DNA of 64,000 nt from Ilumatobacter coccineus YM16-304 (GTDB lineage Bacteria; Actinomycetota; Acidimicrobiia; Acidimicrobiales; Ilumatobacteraceae): the NCBI RefSeq assembly GCF_000348785.1, contig NC_020520.1:1674001-1738000 (forward strand). The letters are read 5' to 3'. Made by a program: the position numbers and the translations under genes. Under the pieces are notes generated by a model. It was not told the origin of the DNA, did no database searches, and saw nothing but the letters and a program-made list of their open reading frames with translations. This document shows positions 16,352 through 28,135 of the stretch, piece by piece. Within the stretch, counting starts at the first letter, position 1, and each line of letters starts with the position of its first letter.

Positions 16352-17527
16352 TCAGGCGATGGCGCCGGCAGCGCGCAGCGCGTCGGCGTCGAAACCCAGT
16401 TCGGCGATGATCTCGAGCGTGTGCTCGCCGTGACCGGGAGCATCGCGACTCACCCGCTGTGGTGTGCCGTGCAAGCGGGCCGCAGGGCGCGGCTCGCGAA
16501 CTCGTCCGGCGATCGGATGGTCACGTTCGACGAACACCTCGTTGTTGATCACCTGCGGATCGCTCGGCAGGTCGTCGAGCGTGTTGATGCGCGACGACGG
16601 AACATCGAACTGGGCCGACCGCTCGATGAAGTCGTGCAGCGAGCAGTTGGCGGCGGCGTCGGCCAACTCGGTCACCATCTCGCCGAAGTTCGCCATCCGC
16701 GACAGCGTGTCGGCGAAGCGTGGGTCCTCGGCGAGTTCGGGGCGACCGAACGCCGCGGTGAGTCCCTGGAACTCGCTGTCGGTCACTGCGCTCGCACTCG
16801 CGAAGCCGTCGGCGAGCCGCGTGACGCCGTAGTTCGCCGCCAACGTCGGCTGGCGGTTGGCGTCGTCGTCGAGGATCACGGCGTCCATCCCCGAATCGGG
16901 CCACATGAACGCGATGGCCGCGTCGAGCATCGCCAACTCGATGTGTTGGCCGCGCGCTTTGCCGGTCGCCCGGGCGAACAGTGCCGCGGTGATCGATTGG
17001 CACGCGGTGTAGGCGGCGGCCTTGTCGCACAGCAGCGTGCGGAACATCGCGGGCTCGCCGTTGGCCGGGTCGGACTGCACGCTCGCCAAGCCCGACGCGG
17101 CCTGGATCACGTTGTCGTACACGCGACGGTTGCTGTACGGCCCGTCGGGGCCGTAGCCGGAGATCGACATGTAGATCAGGTCGGGGTTGATCTCGGCGAG
17201 TTCGTCGTAGCCGAGCCCGAGACGGGCCATCGCTCCGGGGCGGAAGTTCTGGATGAGGACGTCGGTGTCGGCGACGAGCCGTCGGACGACCTCCTTGGCC
17301 TCGTCGGTCTTGAGGTCGACGACCAACGAGCGCTTCCCGCGGTTGTTGTTGGCGAAGATGCCGGTCATCCCGTTCTTCGACGTGCCGAGAATCCGCATGA
17401 TGTCGCCGAAGCCAGGCGTCTCGACCTTGACGACCTCGGCCCCTTGGTCGGCGAGCATCATCGCGGACAACGGCCCCGAGATCATCACCGAGAAGTCCAA
17501 CACTTTCACACCGTCGAGTGGCCCCAT
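16352..17527 (-). CDS. CaiB/BaiF family (class III) CoA-transferase
   Basis: A family III CoA-transferase that moves CoA between carboxylic acids through a covalent aspartyl intermediate; an alpha-methylacyl-CoA racemase activity is the other possibility. Typical features are LDGVKVLDFS at the start, LADQGAEVVKVETP, NNNRGKRSLVVDLK, DVLIQNFRPG, ISGYGPDGPYS and IELAMLDAAIAFMW with the expected catalytic Asp. The C-terminal region (ARLHGTPQRVS ... LGFDADAL) is complete. Length is 391 aa. It converges on the S12 gene with 13 nt between stops. Confidence 0.9.
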   Translation of the reverse strand: MGPLDGVKVLDFSVMISGPLSAMMLADQGAEVVKVETPGFGDIMRILGTSKNGMTGIFANNNRGKRSLVVDLKTDEAKEVVRRLVADTDVLIQNFRPGAMARLGLGYDELAEINPDLIYMSISGYGPDGPYSNRRVYDNVIQAASGLASVQSDPANGEPAMFRTLLCDKAAAYTACQSITAALFARATGKARGQHIELAMLDAAIAFMWPDSGMDAVILDDDANRQPTLAANYGVTRLADGFASASAVTDSEFQGLTAAFGRPELAEDPRFADTLSRMANFGEMVTELADAAANCSLHDFIERSAQFDVPSSRINTLDDLPSDPQVINNEVFVERDHPIAGRVREPRPAARLHGTPQRVSRDAPGHGEHTLEIIAELGFDADALRAAGAIA

Positions 17528-17586
17528 GGCGTGATGATTGCACGGCGACGGAGTCCTCTGACGAAGCGGGCTACCGTCGCGTCGAG

Positions 17587-18603
17587 ATGGAGTCCGACGA
17601 CGAGCACCGATCGGCGACGCCCGAACCGTCGATGCACCTTCCGATCACGGTGATCGGCGGCTACCTCGGAGCGGGCAAGACCACGTTGCTCGACTCGATC
17701 CTGCGACGCTCGCACGGCGTGCGATTCGGGGTGATCGTGAACGACTTCGGTGCATTGGGTCTCGACGCCGGTCTGCTCGACGATGCCGCACCGGACGGCG
17801 TCGTCAACCTCCCCAACGGTTGCGTCTGCTGCACGCTCGGTGGCGACCTCTACGAAGCACTGACCACGCTCGCGTCACTCGACCCGCCGCTCGACCAGAT
17901 CGTGATCGAGGCGAGCGGCGTCGCCGATCCGGCCGCCACCGCAGCGTGGGGCACCGTCGCCCCGTTCAGCCCAGGCGGCACCATCGTGCTCGCTGCCGCC
18001 GACACGATCCGCAGGCAGTCGCGCGATCGCTATGTCGGCACCGAGGTGATGCACCAGCTCGAGGGCGCAGACATCGTGGTGATGACGAAGATCGATCGGT
18101 GCACCGACGACGAGCTCGACGCCGTCGCCCGGTGGCTCGCCGGCACGACCGCCGCACCGGTCGTGCGCGCTGCGCACGGCGACATCCCGATCGAGATCAT
18201 CCGACCGCACCGCCCGCCTGCGTCATCGGGTGTCAGACACCCGATGACGCAGGCGCACGGCGACATCCTCATCGAGGAGCATGGAGCGGTCGTCGGTGCG
18301 GCGTACACGACGTGGTCGTTCGAGTCGACGACGGGCGTGTCGAGCTCTGGGCTGCAGTCGTTTCTCGACGAGCTTCCCGATGGGCTGCTCCGGCTCAAAG
18401 GGGTCGTGGCCGATGGCGATCGGCCAGGACATGGCTTCCACGTCGACGTCGTCGGGCGCCGTGTCGACCACCGCCCGATCGCTTGCGACGCGCCGGTCGT
18501 ACGGCTCGAAGCGATCGGGGTGCGCGGCCTGCTCGACGACCGCGACATGGACGTGCTCGCGGCAACGCACCTCGACCGACCACGACCACCCCGCGCCGAC
18601 TGA
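17587..18603 (+). CDS. CobW/COG0523 family GTPase with an in-frame palindrome
   Basis: A metallochaperone-type GTPase of 338 aa. Walker A is GGYLGAGKTT (near residue 24), the metal-binding CxCC is NGCVCC (near 80), and the guanine-specificity motif is TKID. The CobW C-terminal domain follows from about residue 235. Relatives insert or hand over zinc, cobalt or iron; the metal cannot be read here. A 41-nt perfect palindrome lies between the GTPase and C-terminal domains and adds about 13 residues (PASSGVRHPMTQA) without breaking the frame. TACCGT lies 9 nt before the ATG. Confidence 0.88.
   Translation: MESDDEHRSATPEPSMHLPITVIGGYLGAGKTTLLDSILRRSHGVRFGVIVNDFGALGLDAGLLDDAAPDGVVNLPNGCVCCTLGGDLYEALTTLASLDPPLDQIVIEASGVADPAATAAWGTVAPFSPGGTIVLAAADTIRRQSRDRYVGTEVMHQLEGADIVVMTKIDRCTDDELDAVARWLAGTTAAPVVRAAHGDIPIEIIRPHRPPASSGVRHPMTQAHGDILIEEHGAVVGAAYTTWSFESTTGVSSSGLQSFLDELPDGLLRLKGVVADGDRPGHGFHVDVVGRRVDHRPIACDAPVVRLEAIGVRGLLDDRDMDVLAATHLDRPRPPRAD
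18215..18255. repeat. Perfect 41-nt palindrome, GGTGTCAGACACC family
   Basis: Twenty bases on each side of a central A (18235) pair perfectly; the core is GGGTGTCAGACACCC and the outer arm reads GCGTCATC. The element lies inside the CobW-family gene, in frame. Related copies are at 54266-54302 and 39127-39141. Confidence 0.85.
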
Positions 18604-20315: not shown

Positions 20316-21431
20316 TCAGCTCGGCCAGGCCGAGGTGGGGCCGCCGTCGTAGCCGACGTGCACCGTCTCGCCGGGCTCGAGCAGCAGCCCGGGATGCGTG
20401 CGGGCGGCGAGGCGAGCGCCGTTGGCCAGCTCGAGTTCGTAGCGAACGTCGTGGCCGTAGTACTCGATCTCGGTCACCGTTGCGGCGTGGAGGCCGTCGA
20501 GCGGGAGCCGCTCGATCGAGACCTGCTCGGGACGGACGAGGATCTGCATCGCGCCGCCGCCCTTGAACCCGCGGTGATCGGAGATCGGAATCTCGCCGAG
20601 CATGGTGGTGGCGTGGACCCCGTCGCCGACGGGGGAGCCGTCGACGAAGTTGGCTTCGCCGACGAAGTTGGCGACCCACGGTGTGGTGGGCGTTCGGTAC
20701 AGCTGGTCGGGCGTGCCGTACTGTTCGATGTTGCCGTTGCGCATCACGGCGACACGGTCGCCGAGGACGAACGCTTCGTCTTGGTCGTGGGTGACGAAGA
20801 TCGAGGTGACGCCGACATCGCGCAGGATGCGGGCGACCTTCGAGCGCACCTGGACCCGGAGCCCGGCGTCGAGCGCCGAGAACGGCTCGTCGAGGAGCAG
20901 TACCGACGGGTTGGGCGCGAGGGATCGGGCCAGCGCCACGCGTTGCTGCTGCCCACCCGAGAGCGTCTCGGGTAGGCGGTCGCCCAGGCCGTCGAGTTCG
21001 ACCAGGCGGAGCAGTTCGTCGACTCGCGACGATCGATCGGCACGCGACAGTTTCGTGCCGGGCGAGCGCAGGCCGAACGCGATGTTGTCGGCGACGCTCA
21101 GATGCGGGAAGAGCGCACCGTCTTGGAACACCATGCCGATGTTGCGGCGCTCCGGCTTCACCCAGTCGGACGGACCCGACACGACCTGATCGCCGACCGA
21201 GATGGTTCCGGTGTCGGGTCGCTCGAGTCCGGCGATGGCTCGAAGCAACGAGGTCTTGCCGCAACCGGAGGGACCGAGGAGGGCGACGACCGAACCGGCC
21301 TCGATGTCGAGCGACACGTGATCGACCGCCCGAGCGGTGCCGTCGTAGCTGACCGAGACGCCGTCGACCGTGACACCGCGGCGCGGCAACGTGATCGTTG
21401 CGGGAGCAGCGGCGGCAGGCAGGCGTTGCAC
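20316..21431 (-). CDS. fbpC: Fe(III) ABC transporter ATP-binding subunit
   Basis: The ATPase of a ferric-ion importer, 371 aa. Walker A is LLGPSGCGKTSLL, the signature is LSGGQQQRVALAR, Walker B is VLLLDEPFSALD and the switch is FVTHDQDEAF. The C-terminal TOBE-like domain (ILVRPEQVSIER) marks the FbpC/PotA group. The family member is inferred from the fbpA and fbpB genes 2.7 kb away. The frame is open far upstream; GTG 21431 was chosen because TACCCT lies 8 nt upstream and the ABC fold starts about 20 residues in. Confidence 0.87.
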   Translation of the reverse strand: MQRLPAAAAPATITLPRRGVTVDGVSVSYDGTARAVDHVSLDIEAGSVVALLGPSGCGKTSLLRAIAGLERPDTGTISVGDQVVSGPSDWVKPERRNIGMVFQDGALFPHLSVADNIAFGLRSPGTKLSRADRSSRVDELLRLVELDGLGDRLPETLSGGQQQRVALARSLAPNPSVLLLDEPFSALDAGLRVQVRSKVARILRDVGVTSIFVTHDQDEAFVLGDRVAVMRNGNIEQYGTPDQLYRTPTTPWVANFVGEANFVDGSPVGDGVHATTMLGEIPISDHRGFKGGGAMQILVRPEQVSIERLPLDGLHAATVTEIEYYGHDVRYELELANGARLAARTHPGLLLEPGETVHVGYDGGPTSAWPS

Positions 21432-21520: not shown

Positions 21521-21539
21521 TTAGGGTTGCTTCACCTAC
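21521..21539. promoter_or_regulatory. IdeR/DtxR-like iron box upstream of the fusion gene
   Basis: TTAGG and CCTA arms sit at the correct 19-bp spacing; 13 of 19 bases match the mycobacterial iron-box consensus by hand count. It ends 24 nt before the ATG at 21564, in the -35 region of that gene. Confidence 0.5.
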
Positions 21540-21550
21540 GGCCACGTGGG

Positions 21551-21563: not shown

Positions 21564-24248
21564 ATGTCCGAGCTGGTGATCGATCGCCCCCACGTGGGGG
21601 ATGGCGACGAGCGCCACGGTCGCGAACTCGTCGACGTACTCGGCAACGCGGCGCTCCGGCGACATGGCCGTCGCACGGCGGTGCACGTCGGCGATCGTTC
21701 GGTGTCGTACGCCGAACTGGCGAGGCTCGCCGCCGAGCGGTGCACCGAGTTCGGCGTCGGACGGCGTCTCGTGGTCATCGGCGGCGGCAACGACCTCGAC
21801 GTCGTCGTCACGCTGCTCGCCTGCATCGAGGGGCGTCATCCGTTCGTGCTCGTCGAACCATCGGCGGCTGCGCTGGCCGGCATCGAGTCGTATCGGCCCG
21901 ACGTGGTGGTCACCTGCGAACCCGACCGGGTTGGCATCGACCACCGCACCGACCCGACCGTGCCGTCGCCGCATCGCTTCCATGCCGAACTCGCCGGTCT
22001 GGCGAGCACCTCGGGCTCGACCGGTGCGGCCAAGCTGGTCCGCTGGTCGGCGCGCGGACTCGCATCGAACGCCGTCGCCATCGCCTCGTCGCTCGATCTC
22101 CGTGACGACGACTGCGCGATCACCTCGCTGCCGATGCACTACTGCTACGGCCTGTCGGTGCTCACCTCACACCTCGTCGTGGGAGCGCGGATCGTCCTCA
22201 CCGACAACTCGGTCGTCGACCCGTGTTTCCGCCACGCCGTCGTCCGGCACGGAGTGACCACGCTGGCCGGCGTGCCGTACACCTTCGACCTGCTCGAACG
22301 CGGTGGCGGTGACCTGCTCGACAGCCCGACGTTGCGCCTCGTCACGCAGGCCGGGGGTCGCCTCGCGCCCGCTGTCGTGTCGAGGTTGGCGCAGCGAGGT
22401 CGGCGATCGGGCTGGGACTTCGTGGTGATGTACGGGCAGACCGAGGCGACTGCACGCATGGCATACCTGCCGCCCGACGAGGTCGAGGCGCACCCCGAGT
22501 GCGTGGGCGTCGCGATTCCGGGCGGCGAGCTGTCGATCGATCGGAGTGGGTGCGACGACGCCACAGCGACCGACGCCGACGTCGGCGAGATCGTCTATCG
22601 CGGGCCCAACGTGATGATGGGGTACGCGACGAGCGCGTCGGATCTGGCGACCGGCCGAGAGTTCGACGAACTCCGCACCGGCGATCTCGGTCGCATCAAC
22701 GACGCGGGGTTGCTCGAGATCGTCGGTCGGGCCAATCGCTTCCTCAAGATCCACGGAAAGCGGATCGACCTCGACCATCTCGAAGCGACGCTGCAGGCGA
22801 CGGTCGGCGACGTCCGGTGCGCCGGGGACGACGAACTGCTCGTCGTCGCGGCCCTTCGACCCGACCCCACCGGTGAGCCCCCGGCGACCGCCGCCGACCT
22901 CGCTCACGCTGCGGCACAGCACGTCGCGATCCCCGCCGGGCGCATCGCTTCGATCGTCGTCGACGAATTTCCTCGTACGTCGTCGGGCAAGATCGATCGC
23001 CCGGCGCTCGTCGCGGCCGGTCGCAGCATCGACGGAGGACCGGCGCAGCCGAGCACCGACGCGTCGGTCGCTGAGGCGTTCCGGCTCGTGCTCGGCGTCG
23101 ACACCGTCGCTCCCGACGACACGTTCGCCGGGCTCGGGGGCGATTCGTTCTCGTACGTCGAGATGTCGATCAGGTTGGAAGAGATCATCGGCACCGTCCC
23201 GTCCGACTGGCACGTGCTCTCGGTCGGCGAACTCGATCGCCTGGTCGGAAGCAAGCAGCGCCGACGGTTCGTCACGCAACTCGAGACGAGCGTCGTGATC
23301 CGAGCGATCGGCATCTCGCTGATCGTCTGCACCCACATGCGCGTCTTCCGTCTCGCCGGGGGAGCGCACACGCTGCTCGCTGTACTCGGCTACAACTTCG
23401 CTCGTTTCCAGCTCACCGCCGTCGACGTCGGTGCGCGCCTCCGGTCACTCGGCTCGACCATCGCTCGCGTCGCCGTGCCCACGAGCGTGTGGATCGGGCT
23501 GAATGCGCTCCTGTTCGGCGGCTACAGCCTCGGCGCCGTGCTGCTCGTCAACAACTACACCGGGGGAGCCGCGCGGCGCGACGGTCGATGGGAGTACTGG
23601 TACTTCGAGACGTTCGTCCAGGTGATGATCGTGCTCGGGCTCCTGTTCTCGTTCGCCCGGGTGCGACACGCCGAACGGCGCGCGCCGTTCGCATTCGCGC
23701 TCGGCGTCCTGGCGATCACCTGGCTGTTCCGGTTCGACGTGATCGCGCTGGGCGGGAGCTACAACTACCTGTTCCGCACCCACACGGTCGCGTCGTTCGT
23801 CGCTCTCGGCTGGTTGGCCTACCGGTCGACGACGAACGTGCAGCGCCTCGTCGCCACCGCCGCCACGGTGGCGACCAGCGTCGGCTACTTCGGGCAGACC
23901 GACCGTGAATGGCGCATCATCGTCATGGTCACGGCATTGATCTGGATCCCGCGCATCTCGCTGCCCACGCCGGTCGCTCGCGTCGTCGGCGTCATGGCCG
24001 CGGCCTCGATGTGGACCTTCCTGGTCCACTGGCAGGTGTGGCCGCTGTTCACCCCGTGGCTCGACGATCGCGTCGCCTACCTGCTCACGATGGCCACCGG
24101 TGTCGTGGTGTGGCGGGTCGCGGTGCTGATCGGCCGATGGTGGAACGATCAGCGGCGACGTCGCACGGTCGGGCGCAGCACCAGCAACCAGGTGAGCACG
24201 CCCGACACCGCGATGAGCGTGAGTGACGCGAGCCCGGTGAGCGCGTAG
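21564..24248 (+). CDS. Adenylation-carrier-membrane acyltransferase fusion protein
   Basis: An 894-aa three-part protein. Residues 1-490 are an AMP-forming adenylation domain: STSGSTGAAK near 149, YGQTEATAR near 288, ELRTGDLGRI, FLKIHGKRIDL and the final SSGKIDR lysine near 476. Residues about 500-570 are a phosphopantetheine carrier domain (GLGGDSFSYVEM, Ser near 526). From about 577 to 870 there are roughly ten membrane helices resembling acyltransferase_3/OafA proteins, with THM near 589 as a possible catalytic His. The chain could activate an acid, hold it as a thioester and pass it to a membrane-associated acceptor, as DltA, DltC and DltB do as separate proteins. Substrate unknown. It sits inside an iron-import cluster behind an iron box, and its 3' end overlaps fbpB by 100 nt, convergently. 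Confidence 0.85.
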   Translation: MSELVIDRPHVGDGDERHGRELVDVLGNAALRRHGRRTAVHVGDRSVSYAELARLAAERCTEFGVGRRLVVIGGGNDLDVVVTLLACIEGRHPFVLVEPSAAALAGIESYRPDVVVTCEPDRVGIDHRTDPTVPSPHRFHAELAGLASTSGSTGAAKLVRWSARGLASNAVAIASSLDLRDDDCAITSLPMHYCYGLSVLTSHLVVGARIVLTDNSVVDPCFRHAVVRHGVTTLAGVPYTFDLLERGGGDLLDSPTLRLVTQAGGRLAPAVVSRLAQRGRRSGWDFVVMYGQTEATARMAYLPPDEVEAHPECVGVAIPGGELSIDRSGCDDATATDADVGEIVYRGPNVMMGYATSASDLATGREFDELRTGDLGRINDAGLLEIVGRANRFLKIHGKRIDLDHLEATLQATVGDVRCAGDDELLVVAALRPDPTGEPPATAADLAHAAAQHVAIPAGRIASIVVDEFPRTSSGKIDRPALVAAGRSIDGGPAQPSTDASVAEAFRLVLGVDTVAPDDTFAGLGGDSFSYVEMSIRLEEIIGTVPSDWHVLSVGELDRLVGSKQRRRFVTQLETSVVIRAIGISLIVCTHMRVFRLAGGAHTLLAVLGYNFARFQLTAVDVGARLRSLGSTIARVAVPTSVWIGLNALLFGGYSLGAVLLVNNYTGGAARRDGRWEYWYFETFVQVMIVLGLLFSFARVRHAERRAPFAFALGVLAITWLFRFDVIALGGSYNYLFRTHTVASFVALGWLAYRSTTNVQRLVATAATVATSVGYFGQTDREWRIIVMVTALIWIPRISLPTPVARVVGVMAAASMWTFLVHWQVWPLFTPWLDDRVAYLLTMATGVVVWRVAVLIGRWWNDQRRRRTVGRSTSNQVSTPDTAMSVSDASPVSA

Positions 24249-25747
24249 AGCCCTTCGTTGAACCCGCCCCAGATCTCGGTGGCGAGCGTCGGGAAGTCGA
24301 GGGGTGCGAGCAGCAGTGTGGCGGGCAACTCCTTGACCGTGGCGAGGAACACGAGGCCGCCGCCGGCCAGCAGCCCCGGACGCATCATCGGCAGGTCGAC
24401 GCGGAGCACCCGCCGAGCGGTGCGCGGTTCGAGCAGCCGACTCTGCTCGCGGACATGGTCGGGGACGGCTCGGACCGCCTGTTCGGCACTCGCCAGCGCC
24501 TGCGAGCCGAAGTGGATCACGTAGCCGATGATGAGCAGCGAGAACGACTGATACAGCCACCCGATCCCCGGAGCATTGAGTGCGATCACGGCCAGCGCGA
24601 GTGCGATGACCAGACCCGGGATGGCGAAACCGCCGAGCACGGCCCCTGCTGCCACGCTCGTCGCGGTGCTGGGTCGTCGCGTCGTGGCCAGTGCGATGGG
24701 CAGCACGACGAGCACGGTGACGATGGCCGCGATCACGGCAACGGTGGCGGTGTTGATCGCCGGGTCGGTGAGGTCGCCGACGTCGAGGCGACCGTCGGAG
24801 AAGCCCCGACGGGTCCACACCAGGAGGCTGAGCACCGGGACCACGAGGCCAACGGCGAGCGTCGCCGCACACGCGAGCGTCGCCGGAATCCGCTTCCAGC
24901 CGAGCGTGGCCGGGCGATGGTCGATCGCCGCCGATCGCTGGTCGACGCTCGTGCGACCCCGCAGACGGCGTTCGAGCGTGACGACGACGACGGCGAGGAC
25001 GAGCAGGGTGGTGGCTGCGGCGAACGACGTGGCCCGGTCGGCCTGCCGCGTCACGAAGATCACACGGGTCAGCGTGTCGTAGCCGAGCAACTGCACGGCC
25101 CCGAACTCCGACAGCGTGTAGAGGAAGACCAGGAGCCCTCCGCCCAGCACGGCCGGTCGGATCTCGGGAGCGATGATCCGGAAGAACACTCGGCGAGGGC
25201 TCAGGCCGAGCAGGGTGGCACTCTCGGCCAGGCTCGTGCGGAGCGAGTCGAGTCGGGCCGAGACGGGCAGGAGCACGTACGGGTACGTGAACGCAGTGAG
25301 CACCAGCCAGCTGGCACCCAGCCCGCGGAATCGTCGTGGGGCGTCGACCCCGATGAGGTCGAGTGCATCGTGGATGACGCCGCCCGGCGCGATGCCGGCG
25401 ATGAACGCGCCGGCGCCGACGAACGAGGGCAGGACGAGCGGGAGGACGAGGGCGATGCGCCACACGCGTCGAAACGGCAGGTCGGTGCGAACGGTCAGCC
25501 ACGCCAGCCCGGTTCCGAGCAACGTGGCCGAGAACGACACCAGCGTGGCGAGTTGCACGGTCCGCCAGAGCGGACCTCGGATGTCGTCGAGGGTGTCGGA
25601 GAACGACGCGTCGAGGGTGACGGTTCGGGCGACGACGAACAGCGCGGGCGCCGCGAAGATCGCGCCGATGGCGATCGCTGCAACGGTGATGCCCGACCAG
25701 CGCCGCGGTCGACGGGGTGCGGCCGTGTTCGTCGCGTCTGCGGGCAT
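24149..25747 (-). CDS. fbpB: Fe(III) ABC transporter permease
   Basis: A fused double permease of 532 aa with about twelve membrane helices in two similar halves. Each half carries an ABC-docking (EAA-type) loop: ESATLLGLSPRRVFFRIIAPEIRPA in the first and EQSRLLEPRTARRVLRVDLPMMRPG in the second. This is the FbpB/HitB layout, partner of FbpA and FbpC. It starts 38 nt after fbpA and should be co-transcribed. Its last 33 codons overlap the 3' end of the convergent fusion gene. Confidence 0.9.
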   Translation of the reverse strand: MPADATNTAAPRRPRRWSGITVAAIAIGAIFAAPALFVVARTVTLDASFSDTLDDIRGPLWRTVQLATLVSFSATLLGTGLAWLTVRTDLPFRRVWRIALVLPLVLPSFVGAGAFIAGIAPGGVIHDALDLIGVDAPRRFRGLGASWLVLTAFTYPYVLLPVSARLDSLRTSLAESATLLGLSPRRVFFRIIAPEIRPAVLGGGLLVFLYTLSEFGAVQLLGYDTLTRVIFVTRQADRATSFAAATTLLVLAVVVVTLERRLRGRTSVDQRSAAIDHRPATLGWKRIPATLACAATLAVGLVVPVLSLLVWTRRGFSDGRLDVGDLTDPAINTATVAVIAAIVTVLVVLPIALATTRRPSTATSVAAGAVLGGFAIPGLVIALALAVIALNAPGIGWLYQSFSLLIIGYVIHFGSQALASAEQAVRAVPDHVREQSRLLEPRTARRVLRVDLPMMRPGLLAGGGLVFLATVKELPATLLLAPLDFPTLATEIWGGFNEGLYALTGLASLTLIAVSGVLTWLLVLRPTVRRRR

Positions 25748-25785: not shown

Positions 25786-26805
25786 TCAGCTCTCGAGCCC
25801 GGCGGCTTCGATCATCGCTCGGGTCTGACCGAGTCCGCCTTCGAGTTCGTCGAGGTCGATCGATCCGACGTCACCGAACTCGATCGGCGGCACGTTGCCG
25901 GCGGTCGGCTGACCCGGCACGAGCGGGTACTCGAACGTCTCGTTGGCGAAGTACTGCTGGCCTTCGTCGGAGAGCAGGAACTGGAGGAACTGGTCGGCCA
26001 GATCGGCCTTGTCGCTCCCGGCGACGATGGCGGCGCCGGTGACGATGAGCGTGGCCCCGGGGTCGCCGTCGGCGAAGACGTGGTTGGCGCTCGGCTGATC
26101 GGGGTTCTCGGCCAGCTGGCGGAAGTTGTAGTAGTGGTTGACGAGGCCGACCTGCACATCGCCGCGCCCGACGGCGGTGACGATGGCGTTGTTGTTGGCG
26201 TAGGCGACCGGGTCGAGCGCGGCGAGGTCGCTGAGCCATGCGGCGGCGACGTCTTCGCCTTCGGTGAAGCGCATCGCGGTCACGAAGTCCTGGAACGAGC
26301 CGTTGCCCCCGGCCACGCCGATCTCGCCGGCCCAGCGGTCATCGGCGACCAGGTCGAAGATCGAGTCGGGAAGCTCGGCCGGATCGACGTCGTCGGTGTT
26401 GTAGACGAGCACACGCTGACGGCCCGAGATGCCGACCCAGCGCCCGTCGTCGTCGCGAGTGTTCGGGTCGACGAGATCGAGCGTCGCCTGTGGGATCTGC
26501 GCGAGGTTGGCGTCGACGAACCCGATCGACCCGGGGCTCTGCGACAGGTACACGTCGGCTTCGGCCCGACCGGCGTCGGCTTCTTCGTTGATGAGGAGCG
26601 CGAGGTCGGCCGAATCGCCGTACTTGACCTTGACGTCGATGCCGCTCTCCTCCTCGAACCGATCGATGATCGGCTGGATGAGGCTGTTGCCGCGACCCGA
26701 GTAGACCGTGATGCTGTTGCCGTCGTCGCCGCCGCACGCGCTGGCGACGAGCGCAGCGACCGCGACTCCGATGAGGGCGAATGAGCGATGAGTCCGGAGC
26801 TTCAT
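25786..26805 (-). CDS. fbpA: Fe(III) ABC transporter substrate-binding lipoprotein
   Basis: The ferric-ion binding protein, 339 aa, exported by a lipoprotein signal (MKLRTHRSFALIG ... LVASACGGDDG, lipobox Cys near 24). It opens with ITVYSGRGNSLIQPIIDRFEEESGI, typical of FbpA. The tandem-tyrosine iron-binding site is visible in VNHYYNFRQL. ATG 26805 was chosen over a longer frame because the signal peptide begins there and TACGCT lies exactly 6 nt upstream. An IdeR-like box covers about -20 to -38, predicting repression when iron is plentiful. Confidence 0.9.
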   Translation of the reverse strand: MKLRTHRSFALIGVAVAALVASACGGDDGNSITVYSGRGNSLIQPIIDRFEEESGIDVKVKYGDSADLALLINEEADAGRAEADVYLSQSPGSIGFVDANLAQIPQATLDLVDPNTRDDDGRWVGISGRQRVLVYNTDDVDPAELPDSIFDLVADDRWAGEIGVAGGNGSFQDFVTAMRFTEGEDVAAAWLSDLAALDPVAYANNNAIVTAVGRGDVQVGLVNHYYNFRQLAENPDQPSANHVFADGDPGATLIVTGAAIVAGSDKADLADQFLQFLLSDEGQQYFANETFEYPLVPGQPTAGNVPPIEFGDVGSIDLDELEGGLGQTRAMIEAAGLES

Positions 26806-26875: not shown

Positions 26876-28135
26876 ATGGACGAATTGTCGAAGCAAGGAC
26901 GCCCCGTCGACGAGGTCATCGCGGAGCTGACCGAGAAGCGAGCGAACGACGTCAAGTGGGCCGATGGCAAGACCTTCGGCATGGTGTACGACGGTGGCCC
27001 GTCGGTGCACGAGGTGGCCGAGCAGGCAGCCCGCCTCTATCTCCACGAGAACGCGCTGAACACCCAGGCGTTCCCGTCGTTGGCCGCGATCCAGCGTGAA
27101 GTGGTCGGGTGGACCTCGGCGCTCCTGAACGGCGACGACGACGTGGCCGGCTTCCTCACCAGCGGCGGCACCGAGTCGATCCTGTGCGCGGTGCTCGCAG
27201 CGCGCAAGCGCGCCGCTGCCGAACGCGGTGTGATCGCCCCCGAGATCGTGCTGCCCGAGACCGCACACGCGGCGTTCCACAAGGCGGCCGACAACTTCGG
27301 GCTCATCGTGCGCAAGGTCGCCGTGAAGGCCGACTACACCGCCGACGTCGACGCGATGGCGCTGGCGGTCAACGAGAACACGGCCCTGGTCGTCGGATCT
27401 GCGCCGCAGTACCCGCAGGGCGTGCAAGACGACATTCCGGCGATCGCCGCGCTCGCCCAGTCGGTGGGAGCGAGCTGCCACGTCGACGCCTGCATGGGCG
27501 GCTTCGTGCTGCCGTTCGCCGAACGTCTCGGACGCGAGGTGTCGCCCTGGGACTTCCGCGTCGACGGGGTCACGACGATCTCCGCCGACATTCACAAGCT
27601 CGGCTACGCACCCAAGGGCGTGTCGGTCATCCTGCACCGCACGAAGGAGTTGCGGAAGTACCAGACCTTCGTGTTCGGCGACTGGCTCGGTGGCTTCTAC
27701 GCCTCACCGAACATGCAGGGCACCCGTTCGGGCCTGCCGATGGCGTGTGCGTGGGCGGTCATGCAGCATCTGGGCATCGACGGGTACGTCGACCTCACCC
27801 GCCAGACGTTGATCAACGCCGACAAGATGCGCGCCGGCATCATGGCGATCGACGGCATCAAGGTGCTCGGCGACGGGCAGTTCCACCTCGTGGCCATGGC
27901 GTCCGATCCCGATGCGAGTGGCACGCCGGTCGATGCGTTCGCACTGGGCGACGCGCTGCTCGAGCGGGGCTGGTACCACGATCGCCAGACGCCGCCCGAC
28001 AACCTGCATTCGACGGTCAGCAACACCAACTCCGGTGTGATCGACGACTACCTCACCGATCTCGAGGCGTGCGTCGCCGCTGTTCGTGGCGACACCACCG
28101 ACGATCGCAGCACCACCTACGCCACCCTCGAGTGA
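26876..28135 (+). CDS. Sphingosine-1-phosphate-lyase-like PLP enzyme
   Basis: A group II PLP decarboxylase/lyase of 419 aa. It shows LTSGGTESILCAVLAARK, HAAFHKAADNFG, CHVDACMGGFVLPF and the Schiff-base lysine in SADIHKLGYAPKGVSV; THKYGYAPKG is the hallmark of sphingosine-1-phosphate lyases. These cleave phosphorylated long-chain bases to an aldehyde and phosphoethanolamine. A related decarboxylase activity (such as tyrosine or glutamate decarboxylase) cannot be excluded. No membrane anchor is visible, unlike the eukaryotic enzymes. It is divergent from fbpA; a functional tie to iron import is not evident. Confidence 0.85.
   Translation: MDELSKQGRPVDEVIAELTEKRANDVKWADGKTFGMVYDGGPSVHEVAEQAARLYLHENALNTQAFPSLAAIQREVVGWTSALLNGDDDVAGFLTSGGTESILCAVLAARKRAAAERGVIAPEIVLPETAHAAFHKAADNFGLIVRKVAVKADYTADVDAMALAVNENTALVVGSAPQYPQGVQDDIPAIAALAQSVGASCHVDACMGGFVLPFAERLGREVSPWDFRVDGVTTISADIHKLGYAPKGVSVILHRTKELRKYQTFVFGDWLGGFYASPNMQGTRSGLPMACAWAVMQHLGIDGYVDLTRQTLINADKMRAGIMAIDGIKVLGDGQFHLVAMASDPDASGTPVDAFALGDALLERGWYHDRQTPPDNLHSTVSNTNSGVIDDYLTDLEACVAAVRGDTTDDRSTTYATLE

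Follow-up and report, generated by a model that had tools for sequence, protein, structure and literature searches.

How the FbpABC importers of soil and marine actinobacteria come by soluble ferric iron is, as far as we know, not clear, and a locus in Ilumatobacter coccineus YM16-304 raises the question of whether an enzyme encoded among the importer genes might help to supply it. In the window (the whole 64,000-nucleotide stretch analyzed here, positions 1,674,001 to 1,738,000 of contig NC_020520.1), the genes of an FbpABC-type ferric-iron importer are interrupted by a gene for an 894-amino-acid protein, P0001, in which an adenylation domain, a carrier domain, and a membrane domain of the acyltransferase-3 (AT3) type are joined in a single chain. 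We propose that P0001 is a carrier-fed transmembrane acyltransferase (TmAT) serving iron uptake, a reading to which we attach a probability of about 0.5. The combination of enzyme and importer in one unit makes the iron-supply question testable. The gene and the parts of its product are as follows.

21564 to 24248, plus strand: gene for the adenylation-carrier-AT3 protein P0001, 894 amino acids (open reading frame [ORF] call and conserved architecture)
21654 to 23018, plus strand: adenylation (A) domain, residues about 31 to 485, with catalytic Lys476, pocket Cys194 (GrsA position 235), and invariant Arg298 (GrsA/VinN position 331) (Pfam, alignment, and structure matches)
23061 to 23243, plus strand: carrier (PP-binding) domain, residues about 500 to 560, with phosphopantetheine Ser528 (Pfam; serine present in 73 of 73 aligned rows)
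23256 to 24167, plus strand: AT3/TmAT membrane domain, residues 565 to 868, with Arg580-X10-His591 (PF01757 in relatives, model, and alignment)

The ORF runs from an ATG at 21564 to a stop at 24248, and the frame stays open on the 5' side as far as a GTG at 21546. Pfam recognized an AMP-binding domain (residues 31 to 354, E 2.7e-35) and a PP-binding domain (residues 502 to 543, E 2.1e-5) in P0001 and gave no match for its C-terminal third. Condensation, reductase, and thioesterase domains were not detected (no further Pfam family at E <= 0.1), as the original prediction had stated from the sequence, and ORF, Pfam, structural model, and alignment agree on the AMP-forming adenylation, carrier, and membrane acyltransferase protein that it described. 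A membrane nonribosomal peptide synthetase (NRPS) resembling poly-lysine synthetase was dropped as a candidate because no condensation domain was detected.

The same architecture recurs in relatives. Among 395 Acidimicrobiia genomes searched, a homologue was found in 14, including that of I. coccineus itself, and the other 13 carry a three-part protein; among the sampled loci, the architecture is also present at 41 other actinobacterial and 17 alphaproteobacterial loci, which argues that P0001 is not a chance ORF. The 80 loci taken from genome contigs are the best-scoring of at least 569 and hence a nonrandom sample, and the counts exclude 27 loci at which no membrane domain was detected within the same ORF. 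About 19 of these 27 are free-standing A domains; L083, L089, L090, L096, L103, and L108 also carry a carrier or a longer frame (L089 and L108 with a near full-length tblastn match), and L087, which adjoins fbpABC, and L091 are apparently cut by contig ends. L093 was dropped from the alignments on account of its short membrane part, and membrane-row set A5 used 60 of 66 rows, leaving out L058, L065, L078, L080, L086, and L097. In all 73 aligned rows the TSG of motif A3, E294 (A5), D374 (A7), R389 (A8), K476 (A10), S528, R580, and H591 are invariant. Architecture and invariant residues, the carrier serine included, therefore bear out the idea of a self-contained protein for activation, carriage, and membrane transfer. 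On viral contigs, two pattern matches were seen and tblastn revealed no relative. The orthologue in genome G075 (locus L145) is short, at 764 amino acids, and has an in-frame TAG inside the membrane-domain match; no FbpA was found in that genome, and this copy is possibly decaying where the importer is gone.

The assignment of the C-terminal third rests on its relatives and on a predicted structure. PF01757 (Acyl_transf_3) matched 66 of 72 membrane domains of the family at E <= 0.01 (best 5.4e-15), that of the window not being among them, so that of the three Pfam domains named in the original prediction AMP-binding and PP-binding were found in P0001 itself and Acyl_transf_3 was not called there at E 0.1. 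No MBOAT model was among the families matched by the 72 membrane domains at E <= 0.01. AlphaFold modeled the membrane domain alone with a mean predicted local distance difference test score (pLDDT) of 94.6 and a predicted template modeling score (pTM) of 0.92, and the whole protein with a pLDDT of 88.1 and a pTM of 0.64. When the membrane model was aligned with VIA-align, human HGSNAT scored a Z of 13.8 (267 residues aligned, root mean square deviation 4.9) and GWT1 a Z of 9.7, the best unrelated chain reaching 5.4. Two observations pull the other way: Foldseek alone found nothing for the membrane model at E <= 0.001, HGSNAT ranking second at E 0.36, and the aligner's own documentation notes that helical bundles reach a Z of about 13 by common arrangement, which the 13.8 of HGSNAT barely exceeds. 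Given the gap in Z to unrelated chains and the PF01757 matches of the relatives, we consider the predicted ten-helix TmAT fold of this domain well supported, and the membrane region thus appears to match an acyltransferase, as had been supposed.

Conserved residues suggest how such a domain might obtain its acyl group. R580-X10-H591, in transmembrane helix 1 (TMH1), is present in all 72 membrane rows and in 9 of 9 further copies described below, and R-X10-H is described as an absolutely conserved AT3 signature (PMC9833829, available here, like the other papers cited, in excerpt). An RxxR motif at its normal place, ending 3 or 4 residues before a conserved proline, was found in none of the 72 rows. 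All four ordinary AT3 proteins whose reading frame was correct have the motif, a comparison that comprises one protein from L068 and omits the wrong-frame L122, L125, and L126 among six AT3 loci of the protein's own genome. The TMH1 Asp of DxxR and the TMH2 Phe are not at the aligned positions in the family; a Gly in TMH2 and another in TMH6 never vary, and 67 of 72 rows retain the TMH9 Tyr, which is Phe in the window (alignment read by eye). The RxxR of TMH3 is important in OafB and other proteins (PMC12423673), and in OafB this motif and the TMH1 Arg were modeled on the 3'-phosphate of coenzyme A (CoA) (PMC9833829). A carrier-borne arm has neither that phosphate nor the adenosine, so the missing RxxR agrees with delivery of the acyl donor by the fused carrier, and we infer that this carrier, not acyl-CoA, supplies the acyl group. 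Set against this suggestion are the presence of some RxxR among the 16 residues ahead of the conserved proline in 26 of 72 rows and the statement in a review that the AT3 proteins studied so far take acyl-CoA rather than acyl carrier protein (ACP) as donor (PMC9558356). Because RxxR is absent from its normal place, P0001 appears to represent a divergent, carrier-fused branch of the TmAT superfamily rather than a classical AT3 protein. If the carrier is indeed the donor, P0001 would be, to our knowledge, the first TmAT-type transmembrane acyltransferase fed by a covalent carrier instead of CoA, and with its donor tethered it would lend itself to examining how the acyl donor is taken up by TmAT enzymes.

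The A domain gives some indication of the acid concerned. Among solved structures, the best sequence matches of the A core were oxalate-CoA ligase, VinN (3wvn), MenE, and malonyl-CoA synthetase, and Foldseek with the N-terminal half returned A domains and A-carrier pairs that included MenE, DhbF, PltF, EntE-EntB, DltA, and MatB. At GrsA position 235, the site of the amino-binding Asp, 53 of 73 rows have Cys and 20 have Ser. Position 331 is Arg in all 73 rows, Arg298 of P0001 being aligned with the VinN Arg placed at 331 (chain position 347, an offset of 16 fixed by Ser299). In VinN, Arg331 and Ser299 have been proposed to recognize the alpha-carboxylate of methylaspartate (PMC7756342; VinN loop residues are covered in PMC11253843), and the same kind of recognition has been proposed by docking for AfcQ (PMC12186527). 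Since the Asp is replaced by Cys or Ser and the Arg matches VinN Arg331, the residues favor as probable substrate a small acid that lacks an alpha-amino group and carries a second acidic group. This disfavors the amino acid entertained in the original prediction, and surface aminoacylation with lysine or D-alanine was dropped as a candidate for want of the amino-binding Asp. It speaks against giving this pocket too much weight that the same Arg occurs in 27 of 27 loci outside the counted family, mostly free-standing A domains, those inspected having surroundings of the surface-sugar or flagellin-sugar kind; Arg331 is therefore the mark of a lineage and is proof of neither a dicarboxylate nor a link to iron. 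These loci share, in 27 of 27, Arg 331, Tyr 234, Gly 237, Ser 239, Ala 301, Gly 302, and Met 322, and at position 235 they have Ser (21), Thr (3), Cys (2), or Val (1).

The connection with iron comes from the neighborhood of the gene. In the window, the following genes surround it.

20316 to 21374, minus strand: fbpC, ABC ATPase (gene call; start codon uncertain)
24149 to 25747, minus strand: fbpB, ferric-iron-type ABC permease (gene call and family match)
25786 to 26805, minus strand: fbpA, ferric-binding-type lipoprotein with an HYY motif (homology searches)

The gene for P0001 separates fbpC from fbpB and fbpA, as predicted, and lies on the opposite strand, its final 100 bases overlapping the end of fbpB. 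Here and at the other loci, gene calls are our own, from codon usage, rather than annotation. Counting a gene as linked when two or more fbp subunits lie within 4.5 kb, we found fbp genes beside 36 of 56 Actinomycetota loci (7 of 15 in Acidimicrobiia and 29 of 41 in the others), and the expected co-occurrence with iron genes in relatives was thus observed in this phylum. L042 has less than 1.6 kb on either side, so that its absence of fbp says little, and L048 and L075 show only fbpA and fbpB. The gene occurs in five arrangements: last after fbpABC, first before fbpABC, divergent, convergent, and inserted, the last of these being confined to the window and a relative of the same genus. On a FastTree tree with two long-branch joins that drew warnings, seven labels (the five arrangements and two groups without linkage) need 18 changes against a minimum of 6, and the arrangements taken singly need 6, 4, 3, 3, and 1. 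The linkage to the ferric importer has therefore changed its arrangement repeatedly. Among the neighbor families listed, FbpA- and FbpB-like proteins recur, FbpB in at least 36 loci; the remainder look like shadow frames on the antisense strand, a small number of scattered families, or synteny between close relatives. Linked units were found in Streptomyces, Lentzea, Mycolicibacterium, Rhodococcus, Nocardioides, Arthrobacter, and Acidimicrobiia, among others, and on annotated plasmids of Mycolicibacterium chubuense, Rhodococcus fascians, and R. opacus; the pairing was absent from the annotated Pseudarthrobacter record and the two Rhizobium records examined. At three plasmid loci (L036, L037, and L040), the gene lies near metal-resistance genes (P-type ATPase or cation transporter, with a cadmium transporter at L037) and near genes for an ArsR-type or winged-helix regulator and signal peptidase II.

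The linked FbpA proteins look like ferric-binding proteins. All 36 have the HYY motif, the paired tyrosines of FbpA being those that bind ferric iron, and the best PDB matches of a profile built from 15 linked copies were ferric iron-binding protein, YfuA, SfuA, HitA, and FbpA. Where no fbpA is linked, an unlinked FbpA was found elsewhere in 20 of 22 genomes, the misses being G075 and G191. Across 396 genomes of the phylum, FbpA (E <= 1e-60, at most five candidates scored per genome) was found in 13 of the 14 genomes that have the gene, as against 116 of the 382 that lack it (Fisher 3e-6); the genomes are apparently the same draw as in the membrane-domain search. In that less selected set, 14 of the 396 genomes have the membrane domain at E <= 1e-20, and nine of these copies lie outside the main counts. 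The pocket Arg motif, the carrier Ser, and R-X10-H are present in 9 of 9, L152 being cut at its contig start and hence without the A3 stretch. The own genome (a single contig of 4,830,181 bp) has only this copy of the membrane domain at E <= 1 and one FbpA, that of the window, which matched solely itself at E <= 0.001; an IucA/IucC domain was not found there, nor was any condensation domain over the cutoff, one partial match falling below it.

Putative iron-control sites accompany the linkage. For each locus we scored, in the region from -250 to +60, the best match over 19 positions to TWAGGTWAGSCTWACCTWA, which we take to be the DtxR/IdeR box consensus. The site in the window is as follows.

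21521 to 21539, strand not assigned: weak DtxR/IdeR-box-like site with a 14/19 match to TWAGGTWAGSCTWACCTWA and its end about 25 bp ahead of the ATG (consensus scoring)

The iron-box-like element of the original prediction is therefore present, weakly, and the equivalent place in the same-genus locus L023 has a box of 16/19. In the own genome one site reaches at least 16/19, no more than with a reversed control pattern, so any such control in the Ilumatobacter genome is at most putative. In Actinomycetota other than Acidimicrobiia, a box of at least 15/19 precedes the gene or fbpA in 39 of 41 loci and the gene itself in 28 of 41, where dinucleotide shuffling gives an expectation of 0.04, and the loci without fbpA beside the gene are boxed in 12 of 12 cases. 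Judged by consensus match, putative operators of the DtxR/IdeR type are clear, at the gene or at fbpA, in actinobacterial relatives outside Acidimicrobiia.

Several results weigh against a role in iron uptake. The best box in the window reaches only the 14/19 given above; in Acidimicrobiia boxes of at least 15/19 occur in 3 of 15 loci and of at least 14 in 6 of 15 (0.14 expected); and in the less selected set a box lies at the gene or ahead of fbpA in 5 of the 8 copies with a complete 5' end, linkage to fbpABC being present in 3 of 9. Linked copies supplied the FbpA profile, and no correction for kinship entered the co-occurrence test. None of the 17 alphaproteobacterial loci lies beside fbp genes or has a box, so iron would be the role of the actinobacterial branch and not of the architecture as such. 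Finally, the acid, acceptor, and product of P0001 are all matters that we infer.

With these points in mind, a mechanism can be outlined. The A domain would adenylate a carboxylic acid with ATP, as its invariant catalytic residues suggest, and the acyl group would be loaded onto the phosphopantetheine arm that the same chain's carrier bears at the invariant Ser528. The loaded arm may then take the place of acyl-CoA and reach into the AT3 pore from the cytosolic side, a step suggested by the fold, R-X10-H, and the lost RxxR, and an outer-face hydroxyl or amine could receive the acyl group. When iron is low, DtxR/IdeR-type control would let actinobacteria make the enzyme with or alongside FbpABC, and the carboxylate-bearing product might bind Fe(III) weakly, so that FbpA could take the ion from it. 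A ligand fixed to the envelope seems slightly more likely than a diffusible one. More tentatively, such units may form a new class of iron acquisition, in which one membrane enzyme, fueled by its own adenylation and carrier domains, produces an Fe(III) ligand outside the cytoplasm, whether anchored or diffusible, with neither NRPS condensation nor NRPS-independent siderophore (NIS) chemistry, and FbpABC collects the iron. Neither the architecture nor its iron link was described in the open-license PubMed Central papers that the searches listed, a thin test in which several queries demanded many terms together.

Other explanations have to be weighed against a carrier-fed acyltransferase serving iron uptake. 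P0001 might join its acid to a hydroxy or amino compound, both small primary metabolites, to give a secreted Fe(III) chelator imported through FbpABC, in effect a siderophore made by a single enzyme and by neither the NRPS nor the NIS route. The occurrence of the enzyme-importer unit in five arrangements would suit such a diffusible metallophore, as would the lack in the own genome of IucA/IucC or over-cutoff condensation domains and the position of iron-boxed copies without adjoining fbp among genes that seem, by eye, unrelated to siderophore synthesis. FbpABC-type importers, however, take bare Fe3+ rather than intact siderophores, and no exporter, esterase, or reductase family recurs among the neighbor families listed. 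The acylation sites of characterized AT3 proteins are, moreover, extracytoplasmic and mostly on sugars (PMC9558356), and we regard the diffusible chelator as rather unlikely.

Acylation of a cell-wall glycan or lipid under iron stress, so as to shield or change the surface, with a product that binds no iron and a link to FbpABC by coregulation only, would accommodate the alphaproteobacterial branch, which has no iron link, and the polysaccharide genes beside some alphaproteobacterial and free-standing A relatives. Pfam-confirmed neighbors of this kind are AT3 (L068 and L090), GT2/GtrA (L068), an exosortase (L088), a polysaccharide flippase (L083), and NeuB (L098). The recurrent neighbors in Actinomycetota are nevertheless Fbp genes, in arrangements that changed repeatedly on the tree, and the gene co-occurs with FbpA genome-wide; such remodeling seems to us improbable. 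That P0001 is an ordinary acyl ligase/acyltransferase inserted into the fbp cluster by chance, with no role in iron, could be argued from the opposite strand and the weak box in the window, and is contradicted by the survey, in which 36 of 56 Actinomycetota loci are linked and, outside Acidimicrobiia, 39 of 41 loci and all 12 unlinked ones are boxed; a mere chance neighbor is therefore very improbable.

Two further genes of the window deserve mention. A CobW/ZigA-like GTPase, below NCBIfam cutoffs, is encoded at 17518 to 18603, about 3 kb from the P0001 gene, with a homologue also at the same-genus locus L023, and may be part of a wider metal-stress set. An MfnA-like pyridoxal phosphate-dependent decarboxylase, whose score is under its NCBIfam cutoff, is encoded at 26876 to 28135 on the strand opposite to fbpA, starting 35 bp from the end of that ORF, and L023 has an identical gene order.

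Among known systems, P0001 shares the predicted TmAT fold and the R-X10-H of TMH1 with AT3/TmAT proteins (PF01757; OafB, OatA, and human HGSNAT). Its family differs from them in its built-in adenylation and carrier domains and in having no RxxR at the normal place in TMH3, where that motif is highly conserved, if not universal. The AT3 fusions named in the excerpts are with SGNH domains and alanine racemase, together with eukaryotic ones (PMC9558356, PMC9833829, and PMC12423673), and neither "AMP-binding" nor adenylation terms were found in the available text of PMC9558356 and PMC12423673. The core residues of the A domain and the carrier Ser, kept in 73 of 73 rows, are those of NRPS-type A-carrier pairs, without the condensation domain, and the IucA/IucC domain of NIS synthetases is, as noted, not found in the own genome. 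Dicarboxylate-type ligases such as VinN, oxalate-CoA ligase, MenE, and malonyl-CoA synthetase are the closest matches of the A core, with Arg298 corresponding to VinN Arg331; P0001 differs in having Cys/Ser in place of VinN Asp230 and in its fusion to a carrier and AT3.

Sets of a free A domain, ACP, reductase, LuxE, and LuxC in flagellin-glycan islands belong to the same A-domain lineage as P0001, whereas their carrier is separate, no AT3 is fused, position 235 varies, and no iron link was seen. At ten free-standing A loci inspected by eye (L098, L099, L102, L111, L115, L116, L118, L119, L120, and L121), we saw an ACP-like ORF and reductase, LuxE-like, and LuxC-like genes, a set not complete at every locus; Pfam searches bore out LuxE and LuxC in L102, NeuB in L098, and a reductase in L116, and gave no match for the ACP-like ORF of L116. 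Such sets have been reported, in the excerpts without a proven acyl product, in Aeromonas and Enterobacteriaceae flagellin-glycan islands (PMC7874193 and PMC4875605). At the sphingomonad loci L068 and L090, the A-carrier gene is immediately followed by an ordinary AT3 gene, an arrangement that looks as though one glycan were to undergo two AT3 steps.

The Dlt system (DltA, DltC, DltB, and DltD) offers a functional parallel, in that ATP-dependent activation, a carrier, and outward membrane transfer follow one another. P0001 is alike in outline and differs in combining these parts in one chain, in a membrane part of the AT3 type rather than the MBOAT type of DltB, in an A domain without the amino-binding Asp expected for D-alanine, and in that no DltD was seen beside its gene. 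By analogy, P0001 would work like a one-chain Dlt system, without being one.

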